Origin: a virus
IMG/VR virus record: IMGVR_UViG_3300030380_002187
Coordinates: 1-32,836 of that record
Length of the DNA: 32,836 nucleotides
Reading direction: 5' to 3' (one strand)
The translations under genes and the position numbers were made by a program. A model generated the notes under the pieces. That model made no database searches, was not told where the DNA came from, and saw only the letters and a program-made list of their open reading frames with translations. Position 1 is the first letter of the stretch. Every line of letters begins with the position of its first letter. Shown piece after piece: positions 2,436 through 29,031 of this stretch.

Positions 2436-2767
2436 TGACTAATTATGCACACATTCAAACAAAAGAGGCATGGTTATGGACAGACTTTGGGTTTGATTTT
2501 GCTTCTCGTATTTTTCCACAAGATATTTTAGACGATTTGCCGAGGTATGTACGCGGTGAGAAAAAAGGCAAGATTAAGAATCATAAGATTGTTTGGGAAA
2601 AGGTCGAGCGTGGCGGTTGGACAAGAACCAATGGTGTTGAGAAGAGAGTCGGTAAGGTCATTAAGGCACGACTTGTGTGCTCTCCTTTTCGAGAAGAAGA
2701 GCAGACTGTTTTAGATTATGGGCGCGATGCTGAAGGTAACTGGCAACCAACTTGGAGGGTTTGTTAA
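2435..2767 (+). CDS. Small basic early protein (unknown)
   Basis: 110 aa from ATG 2435, chosen over an upstream TTG (2420) because GGAGGG at 2422-2427 sits 7 nt before this ATG and the codon overlaps the previous stop (TAATG). The protein is rich in Lys/Arg and Trp (for example WEKVERGGWTRTNG, then KRVGKVIKARLV), compatible with nucleic-acid binding but not diagnostic. It ends in WRVC like its upstream neighbour. No family recognised. Confidence 0.75.
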   Translation: MTNYAHIQTKEAWLWTDFGFDFASRIFPQDILDDLPRYVRGEKKGKIKNHKIVWEKVERGGWTRTNGVEKRVGKVIKARLVCSPFREEEQTVLDYGRDAEGNWQPTWRVC

Positions 2768-3069
2768 TGGGAAGGAATTATATAATAAAGCCAAAGAAGC
2801 AAGATAGCGCAGAGTTTCGGGTTTATGTAAGGAATTTAATACACGAAGTAGGCAAGCACATGGATGATTTTCAATCAACCAGAGAAGACTTTTTTCATAT
2901 GTCAAACGAGATAGCTACCATGCCTAAAAAAGGTGCGTGTGACATTTACATGATGGCAAATGAATTAAGCGATTTATCTGAGGAATTAGATTCATTACAT
3001 GAAAAAACTTTAGAAGTTTGGGACAAACTAAGAGAATGGAATCCTAATTGGCAAGGAGAGGAAGAATGA
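2767..3069 (+). CDS. Small early protein, helical (unknown)
   Basis: 100 aa from ATG 2767, preceded by the same GGAGGG ribosome-binding cassette as the gene before it and overlapping that gene's stop as TAATG. The middle and C-terminal parts look helical, with heptad-like hydrophobics (NELSDLSEELDSLHEKTLEV). The end overlaps the next gene by an ATGA junction. No family recognised. Confidence 0.75.
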   Translation: MGRNYIIKPKKQDSAEFRVYVRNLIHEVGKHMDDFQSTREDFFHMSNEIATMPKKGACDIYMMANELSDLSEELDSLHEKTLEVWDKLREWNPNWQGEEE

Positions 3070-5706: not shown

Positions 5707-7157
5707 TGTTTAGATATAAAACACCACCATACGCCCACCAAGAAGAGGCACTTCGCAGGTCTTATGACAAGAAGAACTATGCCTATTTTATGGAAATGGG
5801 ATGCGGCAAGTCTAAGGTATTGATAGATAATATTGTATGGCTCTACGACATTGGTCGTATAGACACGGCTATTATTATTGCACCCAAGGGTGTGTATCGA
5901 AACTGGGAGCTCTCAGAAATACCAACACACATGCCTGATCACGTTGACTATACGGTGGACGTATGGAAACCAAGCCCCAAAAAAGCAGAAAAAGAAAAGC
6001 TTATGGAAGGGGCAACAGAAGAGAGAAAACGATTAAGAATACTCCTTATTAACGTAGAGGCTTTTGGGTCAACAACTAAGAAGCTAAGTTTATATCTGGC
6101 AAGTTACATAGATAATTGTAAGTTTATGTTGGCCGTGGATGAGAGCACCACCATAAAAAACCCGAAGGCAAAACGGACAAAGAACATTATACAATTTGGC
6201 AAGCAGGCAGGATACAAGCGCATACTGACAGGCTCTCCAGTAACAAAGTCACCTATGGATTTATATTCGCAATGTGAGTTTATGGATAAATCACTGCTGA
6301 ATCATGAAAGCTATTGGTCTTTTCAAGGTCGGTATGCCGTAACACGTACACAAAGAATGGGCAGTCATAGTTTTCAAATGATTGTAGGCTATAGAGGTCT
6401 AGAAGAACTATCGGAGAAGCTAGATAAGTTCTCGTTTCGTGTTACAAAAGACGAGGCTCTGGATTTGCCGGAAAAGATATACACAACACGAGGTGTATCT
6501 TTGACAGATGAACAACTCGAATACTATGTATCACTTAAAAACGTAGCAGTCGCATTGCTCGAGGGCGGTGATTTAGTATCAGCCCCCGCAGTTATGACAC
6601 AACTTCTGCGTCTGCAACAAGTGCTCTGTGGTCATGTGATGACGGACGATGGTGACTTGGTAGAGATACCATCGAGAAGAATAGATGCACTACTCGATAC
6701 GATAGAAGAGATGCAGGGCAAGATAATCATATGGTCGCGGTTCAGGTATGACATAAAGAAGATAGCTAAAGTTCTCAAAGACAAGTTTGGTGAGGGCTCT
6801 GCGGTTACATTCTTCGGTGACACAACCGACAACGAAAGACAGAACGCGATAGAGAGCTTTGAGAGAGGTGAGGCACGATTCTTTGTGGCAAACCCACAGA
6901 CCGCAGGTCGGGGTCTCACGTTGAATGCAGCAACGAATGTGATCTATTACTCAAATGATTTTAATCTCGAGACACGCATGCAGTCCGAGGACCGATGTCA
7001 TCGTATCGGTCAGCATAATAAGGTGTTGTATGTGGATCTTGTGTGCCGTGGTACGGTGGATGTGCACATTGTAAAGACATTACAAGGTAAGATTAAGATA
7101 TCTGCCGCAACATTAGGAGAGAAGGTCAAGGAGTGGCTAAGAATACCAACGAAATAA
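5706..7157 (+). CDS. SNF2-like SF2 DNA helicase/translocase
   Basis: 483 aa. Helicase motifs appear in order: a Q-like HQEEAL (11-16), Walker A MGCGKSK (31-37), DEST in the Walker B/DExx position (145-148), LTGSP (motif III, about 174-178), a second RecA domain with IIIWSRF and VTFFGD, then TAGRGLTLNAATNVI and the arginine-finger motif HRIGQ (432-436). This is the compact SNF2/DEAD-type helicase common in phage replication modules. It lacks extra domains, so it is the minimal two-RecA form. ATP-driven translocation on duplex DNA, perhaps fork or origin remodelling, is the likely role. It is coupled to the upstream 59-aa gene (TAATG) and starts the replication block. Confidence 0.88.
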   Translation: MFRYKTPPYAHQEEALRRSYDKKNYAYFMEMGCGKSKVLIDNIVWLYDIGRIDTAIIIAPKGVYRNWELSEIPTHMPDHVDYTVDVWKPSPKKAEKEKLMEGATEERKRLRILLINVEAFGSTTKKLSLYLASYIDNCKFMLAVDESTTIKNPKAKRTKNIIQFGKQAGYKRILTGSPVTKSPMDLYSQCEFMDKSLLNHESYWSFQGRYAVTRTQRMGSHSFQMIVGYRGLEELSEKLDKFSFRVTKDEALDLPEKIYTTRGVSLTDEQLEYYVSLKNVAVALLEGGDLVSAPAVMTQLLRLQQVLCGHVMTDDGDLVEIPSRRIDALLDTIEEMQGKIIIWSRFRYDIKKIAKVLKDKFGEGSAVTFFGDTTDNERQNAIESFERGEARFFVANPQTAGRGLTLNAATNVIYYSNDFNLETRMQSEDRCHRIGQHNKVLYVDLVCRGTVDVHIVKTLQGKIKISAATLGEKVKEWLRIPTK

Positions 7158-7171
7158 TATTATTTATTGGG

Positions 7172-7201
7172 TTGACATAAACTTATCACTGCTTATATAA
7201 C
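7172..7201 (+). promoter_or_regulatory. Candidate sigma70-type promoter in the middle of the replication block
   Basis: A perfect TTGACA (7172-7177) is followed by TATATAAC, giving a -10 of TATATA (7194-7199, 16-bp spacer) or TATAAC (7196-7201, 18-bp spacer). It lies in an 80-bp gap after the helicase, ahead of the 57-aa gene, and could drive the SSB-primase-polymerase genes independently. It is the strongest promoter-like match in the window. Confidence 0.6.
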
Positions 7202-7237
7202 AAAACTAGAGATTTTAAATTATTACAGGAGATTTGA

Positions 7238-7411
7238 TTGGATATTACGAAGTTTAAATCAGTAGCCATTTATGTGGAGACTCATGGAAAAGTAAAAGAG
7301 CTTGCCTATCAGGGTAGAAGGAGCGTTCCTAAACAAATGGAACTACTCATAGACAAAGCTTGGGAAGAACATTTGGCAAGCAAGAAGCTTGACGGTGTGA
7401 AGAAAAAGTAG
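7238..7411 (+). CDS. 57-aa small protein (unknown), TTG start
   Basis: TTG 7238 lies 6 nt after AGGAG (7227-7231); the frame is open to TAG 7409-7411. It begins MDITKFKSVAIYVETHGK and continues with RRSVPKQMELLIDKAWEE. The pattern of a short strand followed by a helix with SVPKQMELLI recalls small DNA-binding or antitoxin-like proteins, but this is only a resemblance. It is the first gene after the promoter at 7172-7201. Confidence 0.6.
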   Translation: MDITKFKSVAIYVETHGKVKELAYQGRRSVPKQMELLIDKAWEEHLASKKLDGVKKK

Positions 7412-7471
7412 GACACTACTAAACCACCCGAAGGGGTAAAACTTTATTTTATATTTAAAGAAGGAGAAAGC

Positions 7472-8041
7472 ATGAGTGATTATGATCTATTCACACATAT
7501 AGAAGAAAAGATTGATGCAAGTAAGTTTGACGAAGTATCTACAGAAGGTGTTTCGGATCTATCTACACTTGTACGCAGGAAACTACAGATTGACAAAGAC
7601 ATTGAGGATGCAGAACAACACCTTAAAAATCTAAAGTTTCAGGCAACTAAGATTTCCACAGAAGATATTCCTGCTCTTATGCAACAGATGGGTGCCAATA
7701 AACTAGGGGTCGATGACCATGAGGTTAAGATAGTTCCCTTTGTTCATGCACGCATAAGTGAAGAGAACAAGGACAAGGCTCACGGATTTATCAGGTCAGT
7801 GGGCGAAGGAGATATCATCAAGAACGAAGTGACTGTTAATTTTTCTGCGGGTCAGGACAATGAAGCAGGTGCGTTTGTGGATGAACTTAGAAGTCAGGGT
7901 AAAGATCCAAACCAAAAAACATATGTACATCATTCCAAGTTGAAAGCATGGGTTAAAGATAGGATCTCTAAAGGTGAATCAATAGACATGGATCTATTTT
8001 CAGTGTTCACAGGTAACGAAGCAAAGATTGTAAGAAAATAA
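7472..8041 (+). CDS. Phage replication-module protein with coiled coil (unknown)
   Basis: 189 aa. Residues about 30-65 are strongly helical and coiled-coil-like (LVRRKLQIDKDIEDAEQHL), followed by a mixed beta segment (VKIVPFVHARI). I have seen this type of protein directly before an SSB-like gene in phage replication clusters, without an assigned function. AAGGAG precedes the ATG. 12 bp separate it from the next gene, so the two are co-translated. A role as DNA-binding or scaffold partner is inference. Confidence 0.7.
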   Translation: MSDYDLFTHIEEKIDASKFDEVSTEGVSDLSTLVRRKLQIDKDIEDAEQHLKNLKFQATKISTEDIPALMQQMGANKLGVDDHEVKIVPFVHARISEENKDKAHGFIRSVGEGDIIKNEVTVNFSAGQDNEAGAFVDELRSQGKDPNQKTYVHHSKLKAWVKDRISKGESIDMDLFSVFTGNEAKIVRK

Positions 8042-8053
8042 TAGGAGGACAAT

Positions 8054-8854
8054 ATGTCAACAAAACAAGCAGTAGCAGAAAAGCAAAACACAGCAATAGC
8101 TAATATTATGGATACCCTCGAGGAACATGCAGGGGCAGGTATGGACTCTATTGGAACGGAGGATATGCAGATACCATTCTTGCGTATCTTGCAACCACTT
8201 AGCCCACAACTTCTAAAGACAGACCCGAAATATATCAAAGGTGCATCAGCAGGAGACTTATTTAATACGGTTACAGGTCAGGTGTGGGACCCAGAGGAAG
8301 GGGTTACTGTGATACCGTGTGGGTATACAACTAAGTATCTCGAGTTTTCTTTCAGAGAAGAAGGCGGTGGATTTGTTCAAGAATTGAACCCAACCAATCC
8401 AGACATTCAGAAGGTAGAACGTGTTGGCTCGTCTGAAAAGTTACCCTCTGGCAACGAGCTCGTGCGTACTGCACAACACTTGGTCATGATCGTGGACGAG
8501 GACGGTGGTACACAAAGTGCTGTGTGTGACATGAAAAAGACACAATTGAAAGTGTCAAGACGTTGGAATACCCAGATGCGTATGTTGCAGTATAAGGGCA
8601 AGAACGGTCCCTTCAATCCACCGATGTGGGCAACAATATGGAAACTAAAAACAATTCAGGAGTCCAATGACAAGGGCTCGTGGTTCAACTTCGATGTATC
8701 CAAGATGGAGCCTACCGATGTGCCTGCCTCTGCTATCGATGCGGCCAAGGCATTCTTTGATAGTTTCAAAAAAGGTGAAATCAAAACATCAGGTGTAAGC
8801 TCAGATGAAATAGATAACTCTCCGCAATCTACAGTCGATGACTTACCCTTCTAA
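8054..8854 (+). CDS. ssDNA-binding-like protein (SSB-type acidic C-terminal tail)
   Basis: 266 aa. The last residues, DEIDNSPQSTVDDLPF, form the acidic disordered tail ending in DDLPF that is typical of single-stranded DNA-binding proteins, which use it to recruit polymerase, helicase and primase. The body (QIPFLRILQPLSPQL near 42-56, RRWNTQMRM, PPMWATIWKL) is rich in aromatic and basic residues. It does not match bacterial SSB, so it is a phage-specific type. AGGAGG sits directly before the ATG. The gene stands between the coiled-coil protein and the primase, as expected for a replisome SSB. The assignment rests mainly on the tail and context. Confidence 0.65.
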   Translation: MSTKQAVAEKQNTAIANIMDTLEEHAGAGMDSIGTEDMQIPFLRILQPLSPQLLKTDPKYIKGASAGDLFNTVTGQVWDPEEGVTVIPCGYTTKYLEFSFREEGGGFVQELNPTNPDIQKVERVGSSEKLPSGNELVRTAQHLVMIVDEDGGTQSAVCDMKKTQLKVSRRWNTQMRMLQYKGKNGPFNPPMWATIWKLKTIQESNDKGSWFNFDVSKMEPTDVPASAIDAAKAFFDSFKKGEIKTSGVSSDEIDNSPQSTVDDLPF

Positions 8855-8858
8855 AATT

Positions 8859-8994
8859 TGGTGAAGCAATGTTGACGGGAGTCGGAGGTCCCCGAAAAAG
8901 GTTATGAGAGTGCTTCATCATTGTAGGTGTATTCAATTGGCGTTTTATCCACCTACAGTTCCTTTCTCTTTCATAGCTAACCTCCACCAACATT
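8859..8994 (+). ncRNA. Candidate structured RNA or leader/origin element upstream of the primase
   Basis: The 152-bp gap between the SSB-like gene and the primase holds several mutually consistent helices. (A) 8859-8868 pairs with 8911-8920 (10 bp, one G-U). (B) 8921-8929 pairs with 8950-8958 (9 bp, one G-U, 20-nt loop). (C) A long-range set: 8868-8874 with 8988-8994 (7 bp), 8884-8889 with 8980-8985 (6 bp), and 8903-8910 with 8966-8975 (8 bp with a 2-nt bulge). A and C cross, so the RNA is either pseudoknotted or switches between two folds. C ends close to the primase ribosome-binding site (GGAGAG 8996-9001). A near-match DnaA box (TTATCCACC, 8945-8953) lies in the loop of B. I know no named family that fits. 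Confidence 0.4.
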
Positions 8995-9006
8995 CGGAGA
9001 GAATAT

Positions 9007-10536
9007 ATGGATCAGACGCAACGGTTCATGGCGGCTTTCAAAGGGTTTGAATACGCACATGGACAGACAAAAATACAAGAAGAAAGAGTGGCCGGAAAGC
9101 AAAAGGCTAACTCTAGAATTATTCGAGAGCCTCTTACAGAAGAGCTCGTAGAGTCTCACCTAAAAGGTATCCTTGGTGTAGGATCTATTCCCATAAATGA
9201 GAACAACAAATGTAACTTCGGTGCACTGGATATTGACACCTATCCATTAGACTTAGTAGCCTTAGATAAGAAGCTACGGGCCGCAAAGGTTCCGTGTATC
9301 GTGTGCCGTTCTAAGTCAGGCGGTGCTCACATATTCTTCTTCTTTACAGAAGAGATACTGGCAGGAGAGTTCCGTGACAAGGCATCTGAGATTGCGTCAT
9401 ATCTTGGATTTGGAGGGTGCGAAATATTTCCCAAGCAAGAACAGGTGCTTGTTGAGCGTGGTGATGTTGGGAACTTTATTAACCTTCCATACTTTGACTC
9501 GGAACAAACCATGCGGTACGCGGTCAAAGAGAACGGCAAGAACGCGAAGCTAACAGAGTTTCTCACACTGGTTAAAAAACGCAGTGTTCCACCAAAAGAT
9601 TTTTTAAATATTAGTTTAGGTGGTCAATCAAACATGTTTAAAGACTGGCCTCCGTGTTTGCGTGTGATGATGGAGCAGGGCATACCAGAGGGCACCCGAA
9701 ACACAACGATGTTTAACGTGGCTATCTTATGCAAGATGATGGATCCAGATAACTGGAAGTCGAATCATGAAAAGATTAACACGCAGTATTGTCAGCCACC
9801 ACTGCCTGCCTCTGACATTGTTACGATCCAGAACCAGATGGACAAGAAAGAATATTTTTACACATGTGATCAAGAGCCAATGAAGTCTTTCTGCAACAAG
9901 ACGTTATGCAAAACTTTAAAGTATGGTGTTGGCAATCAAAAGGTAACGATGGATTTAGCAGGCCTATCTGTTGTGATGTCAGAACCAAGGCTTTGGTTCA
10001 TGGATGTAAATGGCAGGAGGCTAGAGCTAACAACAGAAGAACTACAAATGCCTGTCAGATTTCAAAGAGCCTGCATGGAGCAGTTAAGTTTTATGCCAGA
10101 TGCATTCAAGGCAAATGACTGGCAGATTCTTGTTAATGGTTTGATGGAGAATCTAAACGAGATTGAAGTGCCAGATGAGCTTACATTCAAAGGACAGTTC
10201 TTTGAGCACATGGAGGCATACTGCACTGGCAGAATACAGGCGCAGAGTGCAGAAGAGATTATTCTTGGCAAGCCGTACACGAGAGAGGGATATACTTTTT
10301 TTAGATTGGATTCCCTCATGGGGTTCTTGAGACAACGTAAGTTTGATGATTACTCGAGGGCACAAGTTCAAGAACGATTGAAGGAAATGAATGGAGGTCA
10401 AGAGGCCAATGGAGGTAAAAATTTTAGAACATCTAAAGGGGAATGGAAAACCATTCGTGTGTGGTGGATACCAGAATTTACACAGGAAGTAGAAGTGCCT
10501 GATGTTGAGATAGAAAAGACGGAGGTGCCCTTCTAA
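9007..10536 (+). CDS. AEP-family DNA primase
   Basis: 509 aa. The N-terminal domain shows the archaeo-eukaryotic primase (AEP) signature: ALDID with catalytic D75 and D77, CRSKSGGAHIFFF with SGGAH at 104-108, then EIFPKQEQ and GNFINLPYF as in TOTE-type and related phage AEPs. A downstream helical region (about 220-290) looks PriCT-like, and SFCNKTLCKTLKYG supplies Cys residues for a small metal site. The ~200-residue C-terminus ends in an acidic tail and the final residues EVPF. It would make primers, or prime and extend, at the fork. The gene follows the structured 8855-9006 gap and overlaps the SF1 helicase start by one base (TAATG). The Shine-Dalgarno is GGAGAG. Confidence 0.85.
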   Translation: MDQTQRFMAAFKGFEYAHGQTKIQEERVAGKQKANSRIIREPLTEELVESHLKGILGVGSIPINENNKCNFGALDIDTYPLDLVALDKKLRAAKVPCIVCRSKSGGAHIFFFFTEEILAGEFRDKASEIASYLGFGGCEIFPKQEQVLVERGDVGNFINLPYFDSEQTMRYAVKENGKNAKLTEFLTLVKKRSVPPKDFLNISLGGQSNMFKDWPPCLRVMMEQGIPEGTRNTTMFNVAILCKMMDPDNWKSNHEKINTQYCQPPLPASDIVTIQNQMDKKEYFYTCDQEPMKSFCNKTLCKTLKYGVGNQKVTMDLAGLSVVMSEPRLWFMDVNGRRLELTTEELQMPVRFQRACMEQLSFMPDAFKANDWQILVNGLMENLNEIEVPDELTFKGQFFEHMEAYCTGRIQAQSAEEIILGKPYTREGYTFFRLDSLMGFLRQRKFDDYSRAQVQERLKEMNGGQEANGGKNFRTSKGEWKTIRVWWIPEFTQEVEVPDVEIEKTEVPF

Positions 10537-26793: not shown

Positions 26794-28622
26794 TATGCGG
26801 CTTCCTCTGTCCAGTTAGGGTTTTGTGACGGTTCCTCTTCACTCCAAGATGGAGATTGACTTGCGCTTGTTTCTGACCAACTAGGAGTTTGAGAAGCAGT
26901 TTCTTCACTCCAAGAAGGTGTTTGGGATGGGCTAATCTCTGAATAGTTTGCATTCTGATCAGGAACTATCCTTCCCCACACGACTACATTACCAAGAATC
27001 GCTGTCGTTGACAATCCTGTTAGTGTAACAACAGACTGCGCTACTACAGTTACTGTTCCAACTGTAGTGGTGGCTGATACTCCTGTAACAGGCGCAAAAG
27101 TAATTGTCTCAACGGTAGGACTTCCGACAGACCCTGTAGCAGAGATACCTGTCAATGTTACAGAACAATCCCCTGTAACAGTCTCATCCCCTATAGCAGT
27201 GGTGGCTTCTTCACCTGCTACATCAATATTTGCACCTGCGCTTACAGTTTCATCTCCTACGGCAGATGTAAGCCCTGGAACACTTGAAAGTACAGCCGTA
27301 ACGCTTATTGCTACGGTTTCGTCACCAACCGCTCCTGTAGCTTCTTCACCTGTGGCCGTGAGAGAAGCATCTCCAGTAACGGTTTCATCGCCCACAGCCC
27401 CAGTTGCCTCTAGCCCTGTGAGATCTACAGTTGCCCCCGCTGTAACAGTCTCGTCACCAACCGCTCCTGTAGCTTCTTCACCTGTAAGGGCTATAGTGGC
27501 TGATCCTGTAACAGTCTCGTCACCTACTTCACCAGTTGCCTCCACACCAGTTACATCATACTTTGATTCAATAACAACAGAGCCAACCGCCCCTGTTCCT
27601 TCTACCCCTGTTGGAGATATGTTAGCCGTACCGACAACGGTTTCGTCACCCACACTTAGAGTAGAAGCTTCCCCAGATACCCCTGTAACAGCGGCTCCAC
27701 TTATGCTCATGTCCCCTGTTCGACCAACAGCTTGCTCACCTGTGGTAGTAAGTGTTGAACTTCCACTTACGGTTTCATCCCCAAGACCTGTAGTGGCAGA
27801 CACCCCTGTAAGAGAGACAGAAACATTTGCAGTGACAGAAACAGTGACGCTTCCTAAATTAGCTGTCGCAGCAACACCGCTGACTACAACATTACTGTCT
27901 AAACTTGTATCAACGGTAACAGAGCTAACCGCTCCTGTAGCAGACACCCCTGTAACGGATACGGGGGTTTCGAGAGATACAGTCAGATCGCCCACTGAGC
28001 CTGTGGCAGATAATCCTGTTGCAGATGCAGATGCTCCTGCTGCCACTGTTTCGTTACCAACTGAGCCTGTGGCAGATAATCCTGTAACACTCAAAGTTGA
28101 GCTTGCAGTAACGGTTTCATTACCAACTGAACCTGTAGCAGATGCCCCTGTAGGTGAAACAGATGCTGTGCCAGTAACGGTTTCATTACCAACTGAACCT
28201 GTAGCAGATAATCCTGAGACTGCGATAGATACTGAAGTTGAAGCGGTTTCATTACCAACTGCCCCTGTGCCGGAAAGCCCCGTCACAGATACATTTGCTG
28301 AACCCGTTACGGTTTCATCGCCAACATTTAGAGTAGCCCCTGTACCAGATACACCTGCGATACCTGCCCCTAGTACAGTAACAGAGCCAACACCGCCCGT
28401 TGCTGCGATACCTGTTAAAGTCGTAGAGCTTGCGCCAGTTACCGTTTCGTTGCCAACAGCCGAAGTGGCCGCAACACCTGTAACAGAGACAGTAACACCG
28501 ATTGCACCGCCCCAGCCACCATCACCCCATGCATCTCCACCCCAAGTGCCAGAAGCAGGAGTGGTTACTTGGTCAGCATCAGCAAAAGGACGTTCTGAAA
28601 ACGCTGAAAAAGGCAACGCCAT
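26793..28622 (-). CDS. Fibre/adhesin with ~23 tandem 22-residue repeats
   Basis: 609 aa. A short N-terminal segment with a Gly-Trp motif (GTWGGDAWGDGGWGG) leads into about 23 repeats of roughly 22 residues, consensus T(G)xSATGSVGxETVTGxAxV. Two homogenised blocks are visible: SATGSVGNETV in the first half and EATGAVGDETV in the second. The C-terminus is a separate Ser/Pro/Trp repeat (SQTPSWSEE-like, about five copies). The regular beta-prone period suggests a solenoid or extended fibre. There are no cysteines in the main repeats, no signal sequence and no protease motif. The repeats keep the complementary strand open over 1.5 kb. Fibre function is inferred from composition and context. Confidence 0.7.
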   Translation of the reverse strand: MALPFSAFSERPFADADQVTTPASGTWGGDAWGDGGWGGAIGVTVSVTGVAATSAVGNETVTGASSTTLTGIAATGGVGSVTVLGAGIAGVSGTGATLNVGDETVTGSANVSVTGLSGTGAVGNETASTSVSIAVSGLSATGSVGNETVTGTASVSPTGASATGSVGNETVTASSTLSVTGLSATGSVGNETVAAGASASATGLSATGSVGDLTVSLETPVSVTGVSATGAVSSVTVDTSLDSNVVVSGVAATANLGSVTVSVTANVSVSLTGVSATTGLGDETVSGSSTLTTTGEQAVGRTGDMSISGAAVTGVSGEASTLSVGDETVVGTANISPTGVEGTGAVGSVVIESKYDVTGVEATGEVGDETVTGSATIALTGEEATGAVGDETVTAGATVDLTGLEATGAVGDETVTGDASLTATGEEATGAVGDETVAISVTAVLSSVPGLTSAVGDETVSAGANIDVAGEEATTAIGDETVTGDCSVTLTGISATGSVGSPTVETITFAPVTGVSATTTVGTVTVVAQSVVTLTGLSTTAILGNVVVWGRIVPDQNANYSEISPSQTPSWSEETASQTPSWSETSASQSPSWSEEEPSQNPNWTEEAA

Positions 28623-28632
28623 CTTTAACCTC

Positions 28633-29031
28633 CTATGCTAAGTCTCCAAAAACAGAAGAGTTCACAACATCCATATCATCTGCATTTTGATTATCTATCC
28701 TTATACAAATAACCCCATGTGAACCAGTTGCATACCCTGTATCTGCGCTTGTTCCGCAACCAACAACTCTAGGCTGTGCTTTATCAGTTTCTGTTGCAAT
28801 TCCTTGAACTATGTATGTTGTGTTTCCCATATTACTTGTAAAATTATATGTATAATCACCTGTTCCTTCGTCAGTCATACTTGCTGTATTTAAGCTATCG
28901 GTAATAGCAACTGTTCCTGAACCATCTCCATTTGTCCAAACTTTAGCACTGCCATTTGCCACAAAAGAGGTAGCTATAGAGTTATTACCACTGGCATCCT
29001 TTAGTGTATTTACTCTAAGCTCACTTGCCAT
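28633..29031 (-). CDS. Small fibre-like protein, LKVD-GDLA family member
   Basis: 132 aa, N-terminus MASELRVNTLKDASGNNS, C-terminus FGDLA. Together with its neighbours it shares an N-terminal xELxV(D/N)xL segment and a C-terminal GDLA, with an unrelated Ser/Thr-rich beta middle. This N-terminal module is known from many marine phage structural proteins. Likely a short fibre or decoration protein whose middle is variable. Its start overlaps nothing; 10 bp separate it from the repeat adhesin. Confidence 0.65.
   Translation of the reverse strand: MASELRVNTLKDASGNNSIATSFVANGSAKVWTNGDGSGTVAITDSLNTASMTDEGTGDYTYNFTSNMGNTTYIVQGIATETDKAQPRVVGCGTSADTGYATGSHGVICIRIDNQNADDMDVVNSSVFGDLA

Follow-up and report, generated by a model that had tools for sequence, protein, structure and literature searches.

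The 152-nucleotide gap between a gp34-like gene and a primase gene in the window (the whole stretch of DNA analysed, a 32.8-kb virus record) almost certainly, judging from sequence comparison, contains an RNA pseudoknot of four interlocked helices. The genes around it all lie on the + strand, in the order DUF7307 gene (Pam3 gp33-like), Pam3 gp34-like gene (8054–8854; phrog_2402 in PHROGs, Pfam PF23977 at 9e-66), gap (8855–9006), primase gene of the AEP-TOTE type, its product ending in VPF (9007–10536), and then genes for a UvrD helicase and DNA polymerase A. At its 5′ edge the fold is bounded by the stop codon of the gp34-like gene. At the other end, the motif GGAG (8996–8999, + strand, within CGGAGAG) is the likely Shine-Dalgarno sequence of the primase; it is located outside the conserved fold, with weak local pairing possible.

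The fold consists of helices a, b, c and d plus a hairpin e, all on the + strand, with the strands in the order a, b, d, b′, c, a′, e, c′ and d′, where the prime marks the 3′ strand. Helix a is formed by residues 8859–8868 and 8911–8920, the latter immediately following the 5′ strand of helix c. It corresponds to the 10-base-pair helix of the initial annotation and is kept in relatives. Helix b (8876–8879 with 8891–8894) had been overlooked; its loop contains the 5′ strand of helix d (8884–8889), which pairs with residues 8980–8985, 21 nucleotides before the primase AUG. This is the long-range helix of 6 base pairs described before, again kept in relatives. The long-range helix given as 8 base pairs is helix c, present in relatives and in the window clade, with 11 pairs if G.U is counted (8900–8910 with 8968–8978); its 5′ strand is preceded by AAAAA, and a single A (8979) separates the 3′ strands of c and d. 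Hairpin e (8922–8957) has 8 pairs where 9 had been claimed (8922–8929 with 8950–8957), can be extended and is likewise retained. Helix a crosses c and d, and b crosses d, so that the crossing of helices is real and is where it had been placed. A proposed outer helix of 7 base pairs (8868–8874 with 8988–8994) can indeed pair, but its strands, AATGTTG and CAACATT, are missing from the five nearest relatives (alignment A5), and it is therefore probably due to chance. The suggestion that the long-range set extends up to the ribosome site depended on this helix and is lost with it, the conserved fold stopping 21 nucleotides before the AUG.

Whether the stretch folds better than shuffled controls depends on how folding is scored. 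With nested structures the advantage is modest: the 136-nucleotide stretch has a z-score of -2.29 (2 of 200 shuffles as good), the whole 152-nucleotide gap -1.2 and the minus strand -1.50. The first two values make energy alone insufficient for the claim. With a pseudoknot-aware descriptor, none of 200 and none of 150 dinucleotide shuffles reach the score of the window.

Relatives were collected in four scans of viral contigs, of which two used the primase and gp34-like protein as queries and two used other primases. These yielded 244 loci with an excisable gap, all on metagenomic contigs, which reduce to 110 distinct gaps of 25 to 230 nucleotides. By inspection and descriptor, the pseudoknot core is present in 36 of the 110, and the majority of these have the full set of four helices; slot and layout are the same across clades despite almost wholly different letters. 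Clades L086/L088 and L119/L196 have no clear helix a, L126 is reduced to helices b and d, a plain H-type pseudoknot, and L136 taken by itself shows no clear excess (1 of 60 shuffles as good). Helix strands, hand-chosen for pairing, were tabulated for 19 representatives. In these, helix a begins 0 to 8 nucleotides past the upstream stop codon, the junction between b and c is A-rich, and the 3′ strand of d ends 20 to 27 nucleotides before the AUG (19 of 19). The 3′ strands of c and d are separated by one A and nothing else in 17 of the 18 that have helix c, L102 deviating with the strands chosen. Over all members measured, the distance from the end of the fold to the primase AUG is 20 to 30 nucleotides, leaving the ribosome site free. 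The window has all these features: the strand order a, b, d, b′, c, a′, c′, d′, the A at 8979, the AAAAA junction and the spacer of 21 nucleotides.

A later scan with another gp34-like protein provided 19 distinct, previously unseen gaps as a held-out set, 8 of which contain the fold by eye. The descriptor was run on five of these eight (L436, L447, L442, L446 and L441, of which L447 and L442 are close kin). In all five it found helices a, b, c and d in order together with the single A, none of 150 shuffles reaching the score in any case; the 3′ strand of d ends 23 to 30 nucleotides before the AUG. Helix a of L446 is short (4 base pairs) unless a bulge is allowed, and in L447 and L442 the junction between b and c is TG, not A-rich. 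Several gaps are long, with 183 nucleotides in L479, 218 in L488 and 165–166 in L446 and L441, the extra insert being located inside an outer stem or in the e region.

A covariance model of 16 other members (R1) gave no match at E <= 5 to the window or to L081–L084. The model carries a helix d of GGGGG and CCCCC, which the window clade does not have; membership of the window clade rests on layout, not on sequence. When R1 was run over 28 whole records, 22 of them contained a single strong match each (E < 1e-4); two additional matches were weak. It also reveals the fold in L067, where the gp34-like frame is apparently broken (around 2540–3000) and the pseudoknot is intact; a sequencing or assembly error is possible there. 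A common-core pattern retrieved 36 stretches from viral contigs, and the high helix scorers all come from contigs of this slot. Copies in bacterial genomes were considered and rejected: there are at least 117 pattern matches, with helix scores that look like chance.

Conservation of the fold by compensatory changes is shown by an alignment of 16 relatives, with the window clade left out. Of the cells in the four-helix structure, 91.7% are paired (81.7% when shuffled), and 56 cells are changed on both sides, against 18.3 (0 of 500 shuffles as high). Sliding the partners by 1 to 3 columns makes pairing fall to 34–56%. Helix c has double changes in 8 of its 9 pairs, helix d is nearly invariant (5 of 7 pairs never vary) and helix a pairs in only 74.6%, owing to a one-base shift of its register in part of the rows. 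The number of further pair types shows no excess over shuffles (437 of 500 as high). Within one close clade, a single pair of helix c appears as T-A (L101), T.G (L042) and C-G (L147). The window clade alone (six sequences) pairs in 99.6% of cells, a signal reached by 14 of 500 shuffles; its double changes are confined to hairpin e, which has two, while helix c has four one-sided changes of the G.U type.

When the strands are tabulated per representative, including four held-out ones, there are 17, 17, 22 and 10 distinct strand pairs for helices a, b, c and d. Native pairing is 128 of 129, 95 of 95, 201 of 204 and 62 of 62, respectively, values near 100% by construction, as the strands were hand-picked; only the drop upon permuting is informative. 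Permuting the 3′ strands lowers mean pairing to 0.53, 0.54, 0.68 and 0.83, and none of 5000 permutations reaches the observed pairing for any helix, relatedness being uncorrected in this comparison. Thus the alignment shows compensatory changes in the helices, rather than sequence kept without compensation, the outcome that the initial annotation had named as speaking against its proposal.

The direction of folding was examined by allowing A.C instead of G.U, as would apply on the opposite strand. The full fold is then lost in 4 of 10 representatives (L085, L098, L090 and L115) and weaker in 4 more, while L103 is unaffected and L094 almost so. This indicates that the + strand is the one that folds, acting as mRNA, and disfavours a minus-strand RNA. 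RNA is also the natural reading because all neighbouring genes run the same way. A tally of 33 G.U against 1 A.C is biased, since strands were picked allowing G.U.

At the gathering cut-off, Rfam 15 has no matches to the window or to 14 relatives' loci, and none at E <= 1 to 7 further loci; a permissive search with window residues 8800–9060 gave one snoRNA match at chance level (E 3.3). The initial annotation recognised no known consensus and suggested a novel pseudoknotted RNA. Both statements agree with these Rfam results for the window and 21 relatives' loci, the latter also with the covariation and the held-out members. A self-cleaving ribozyme or a riboswitch is not favoured, as Rfam gives no match and the only unpaired parts seen to be conserved are the A-rich junctions. 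Our literature searches turned up no account of an RNA lying between genes for an SSB-like protein and a primase.

The slot is not always occupied by a pseudoknot. The other gaps mostly contain hairpins, with z below -2 in 59 of 74, a tally in which L067 is counted as non-pseudoknot or omitted for its broken gp34 frame. The structures in them start at a median of 6 nucleotides past the stop codon and end at a median of 20 before the AUG, the last 14 nucleotides being omitted from the fold. Strong hairpins are present in 4 of 5 gaps examined from named phage records; in the fifth, L413, the gene upstream of the gap is encoded on the opposite strand, and no such hairpin is present. L413 and L124 (32 nucleotides) are examples of gaps with low structure. 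In gaps L058–L074 and L140–L160 the hairpins are terminator-like, with loops (ACACTC or CCTCC) that can pair with the primase Shine-Dalgarno sequence.

Mapped onto a tree of 109 primases, presence or absence of the pseudoknot requires 9 changes, at least 8 of them forced by well-supported branches, with L067 mislabelled in this count for the same reason. L014 and the L008 group have flanks that are 97–99% identical and gaps that are 42% identical, the slot containing a 226-nucleotide RNA in the former and a 131-nucleotide pseudoknot in the latter. Conversely, L014 and L047 share a gap of 96% identity between flanks of 60% and 73%, and L119 and L196 a common pseudoknot (83%) between flanks of 61% and 70%. 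Exchange takes place with its left breakpoint at the upstream stop codon and its right breakpoint close to where the primase gene begins. In general, across 148 distinct loci, the identity of the gap correlates with that of the flanks (0.69 and 0.66), and clean exchanges are therefore exceptional and not the rule; exact-pattern searches for the same cassettes retrieved 3 and 5 contigs, none of them new. It is conceivable, if rather doubtful, that the slot is a docking site for RNA cassettes (pseudoknot, four-hairpin array or terminator-like hairpin) interchangeable independently of both flanks, the pseudoknot being the most elaborate and a new class of protein-independent translational insulator. 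Whole-cassette exchange at one fixed slot, if confirmed, would be an unusual case of modular RNA evolution in phages. The 226-nucleotide RNA (2775–3000 in both L014 and L047) appears to have about four hairpins, with possible kissing loops by eye. L014 also has an insertion of about 290 nucleotides (1671–1958) 5′ of gp34 relative to the L008 group, containing a small reading frame.

The gp34-like protein is probably a single-stranded-DNA-binding protein and is termed SSB-like here. In the window it ends in DDLPF; in relatives DDDIPF is commonest, and nearly all have a D/E-rich tip of the [IVL]PF type. The protein has no sequence match in the PDB. Its structure is predicted with a pLDDT of 82, and Foldseek gives no significant match (E above 1e-3). 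In a second structural alignment the phiC31 RDF is at the top (Z 7.8), the gp32 cores of RB69 and T4 score 6.2 and 6.0 over 164–167 residues and many bacterial SSBs score lower (Z 3–4), all within the range possible by chance. The tip of the primase is also SSB-like, [VIAP]PF in 126 of 127 distinct primases and VPL in one, and may compete for partners that bind the SSB tip.

As to function, our tentative reading of the sequence evidence, at a probability of about 0.4, is that the pseudoknot acts in cis between the two cistrons, uncoupling or tuning translation of the primase. In a polycistronic replication mRNA, the fold would occupy the space from the upstream stop codon to the primase ribosome site. 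Ribosomes finishing the upstream gene would transiently melt helix a and then be blocked from continuing to the primase gene, whose own site would stay open. This would allow high output of the binding protein, with primase synthesis independent of it and steady at a lower level; slowing of exonucleases, protecting the mRNA, is a possible second role. In most types of slot, a ribosome that terminates is separated by stable structure from one that initiates, for which reason an intercistronic barrier is favoured. As the primase ribosome site is left free, sequestration is not the general rule, and no specific partner would be needed, because cassettes exchange between phages with differing or the same flanking proteins. 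Against a barrier, simple hairpins seem to serve equally in most relatives, leaving no evident reason to retain a costly pseudoknot, and some gaps are nearly unstructured (L124 and L413).

The main rival, somewhat unlikely in our analysis, is a translational operator for the neighbouring SSB-like protein, which would nucleate on the pseudoknot, coat the ribosome site and shut off the primase when single-stranded DNA is covered. The DD[IVL]PF tail of the upstream protein and the alignment of its model to the gp32 cores and many SSBs point this way, even if those fold matches are within the chance-possible range. So does the layout: the T4/RB69 gene 32 operator (PMC535899) is likewise a pseudoknot 5′ of an unstructured ribosome site in a phage replication mRNA, with an SSB gene involved. 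However, that operator precedes the SSB gene itself, while the RNA described here is 3′ of the SSB-like gene and 5′ of the primase gene. Its pseudoknot is about 28 nucleotides (PMC535899), against a four-helix fold in gaps of about 65 to 166 nucleotides here, and the window spacer (8986–9006) has no T4-like UUAAA or UAAA repeats. Near-identical binding proteins adjoin a pseudoknot in the L008 group and the unrelated 226-nucleotide RNA in L014; an operator explains the neighbourhood but not the same protein with unrelated RNAs in the slot.

Less probable is a transcription attenuator, a terminator or a stabiliser of mRNA 3′-ends, any of which would leave more upstream than downstream transcript. 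Many non-pseudoknot relatives have a hairpin and a T-run, and a run of five T occurs at some position in 15 of the 36 gaps with a pseudoknot and in 33 of the 74 without, but no T-run follows the fold of the window. A search of the + strand of 7100–9100 for a G+C-rich stem followed by a U run found no terminator-like site.

The two-state switch suggested in the initial annotation, in which the 3′ strand of d would pair either with its 5′ strand or with the primase Shine-Dalgarno sequence, fared worse and is improbable. In several clades GGGGG or GGAG can serve as a partner for CCCCC or its tail, with an alternative hairpin of up to -14 kcal/mol in L008. This pairing is not conserved, though: CCCCC cannot pair in clades with AGGAG sites, z-scores against shuffles range from -3.4 to 1.8 in the 19 representatives (mostly -1.5 to 0.7, with no general excess) and the ribosome site is partly paired in both states. 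An element acting at the level of DNA, for example an origin of replication or a site where primase is loaded onto single-stranded DNA, would suit the location between two replication genes, but is very improbable in our analysis. The A.C-for-G.U comparison favours a + strand RNA, although single-stranded DNA of the + strand would also be compatible with it. Recoding of the upstream gene's end, by frameshift or stop readthrough, for which a pseudoknot directly past a stop codon might be taken as the signal, can practically be dismissed, as the gap lengths are spread over the three frames (17, 10 and 9 of 36), extensions vary from 1 to 55 codons and helix a, 0 to 8 nucleotides past the stop, would be mostly inside the ribosome.

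The family is new to Rfam, and we could not place its topology among known systems. In the repZ leader pseudoknot of IncI-alpha and IncB plasmids, an upstream frame ends at the structure and a hairpin loop pairs with a strand just before the ribosome site of the replication gene, much as here, but our upstream frame is a full protein gene and the order of helices differs. Three-stemmed H-type pseudoknots with an inserted stem, such as preQ1-III and viral frameshift signals, share the topology of helices b, d and c, of which L126 is the bare H-type. The second crossing, by helix a, sets our fold apart from them, as does the lack of a common conserved core and of an Rfam match. Pistol and HDV-like ribozymes also have a hairpin loop paired downstream and an A-rich junction, but their strand order is different (in our fold d′ follows c′), and no conserved catalytic core is seen here. 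Few cis-acting pseudoknots regulating phage replication genes are known to us. The manA and wcaG leader RNAs of cyanophages (PMC2864571) are structured marine-phage RNAs likewise found by comparison, but have other structures and belong to metabolic, not replication, genes. A strongly covarying pseudoknot family beside an SSB-like gene and a primase gene in many marine phages raises the testable question of how such phages set their SSB-to-primase ratio.

Elsewhere in the window, the spacer at 7158–7471 contains a promoter-like sequence (TTGACA-16-TATATA, 7172–7199), noticed by eye and absent from the list produced by the scan, and a possible reading frame of 57 amino acids (7238–7411) 5′ of the DUF7307 gene. 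On the minus strand, residues 26793–28622 encode a 609-amino-acid protein with many short GNETVTG-like repeats; the 524-amino-acid frame on the opposite strand (27067–28641, +) is probably a by-product of these repeats.
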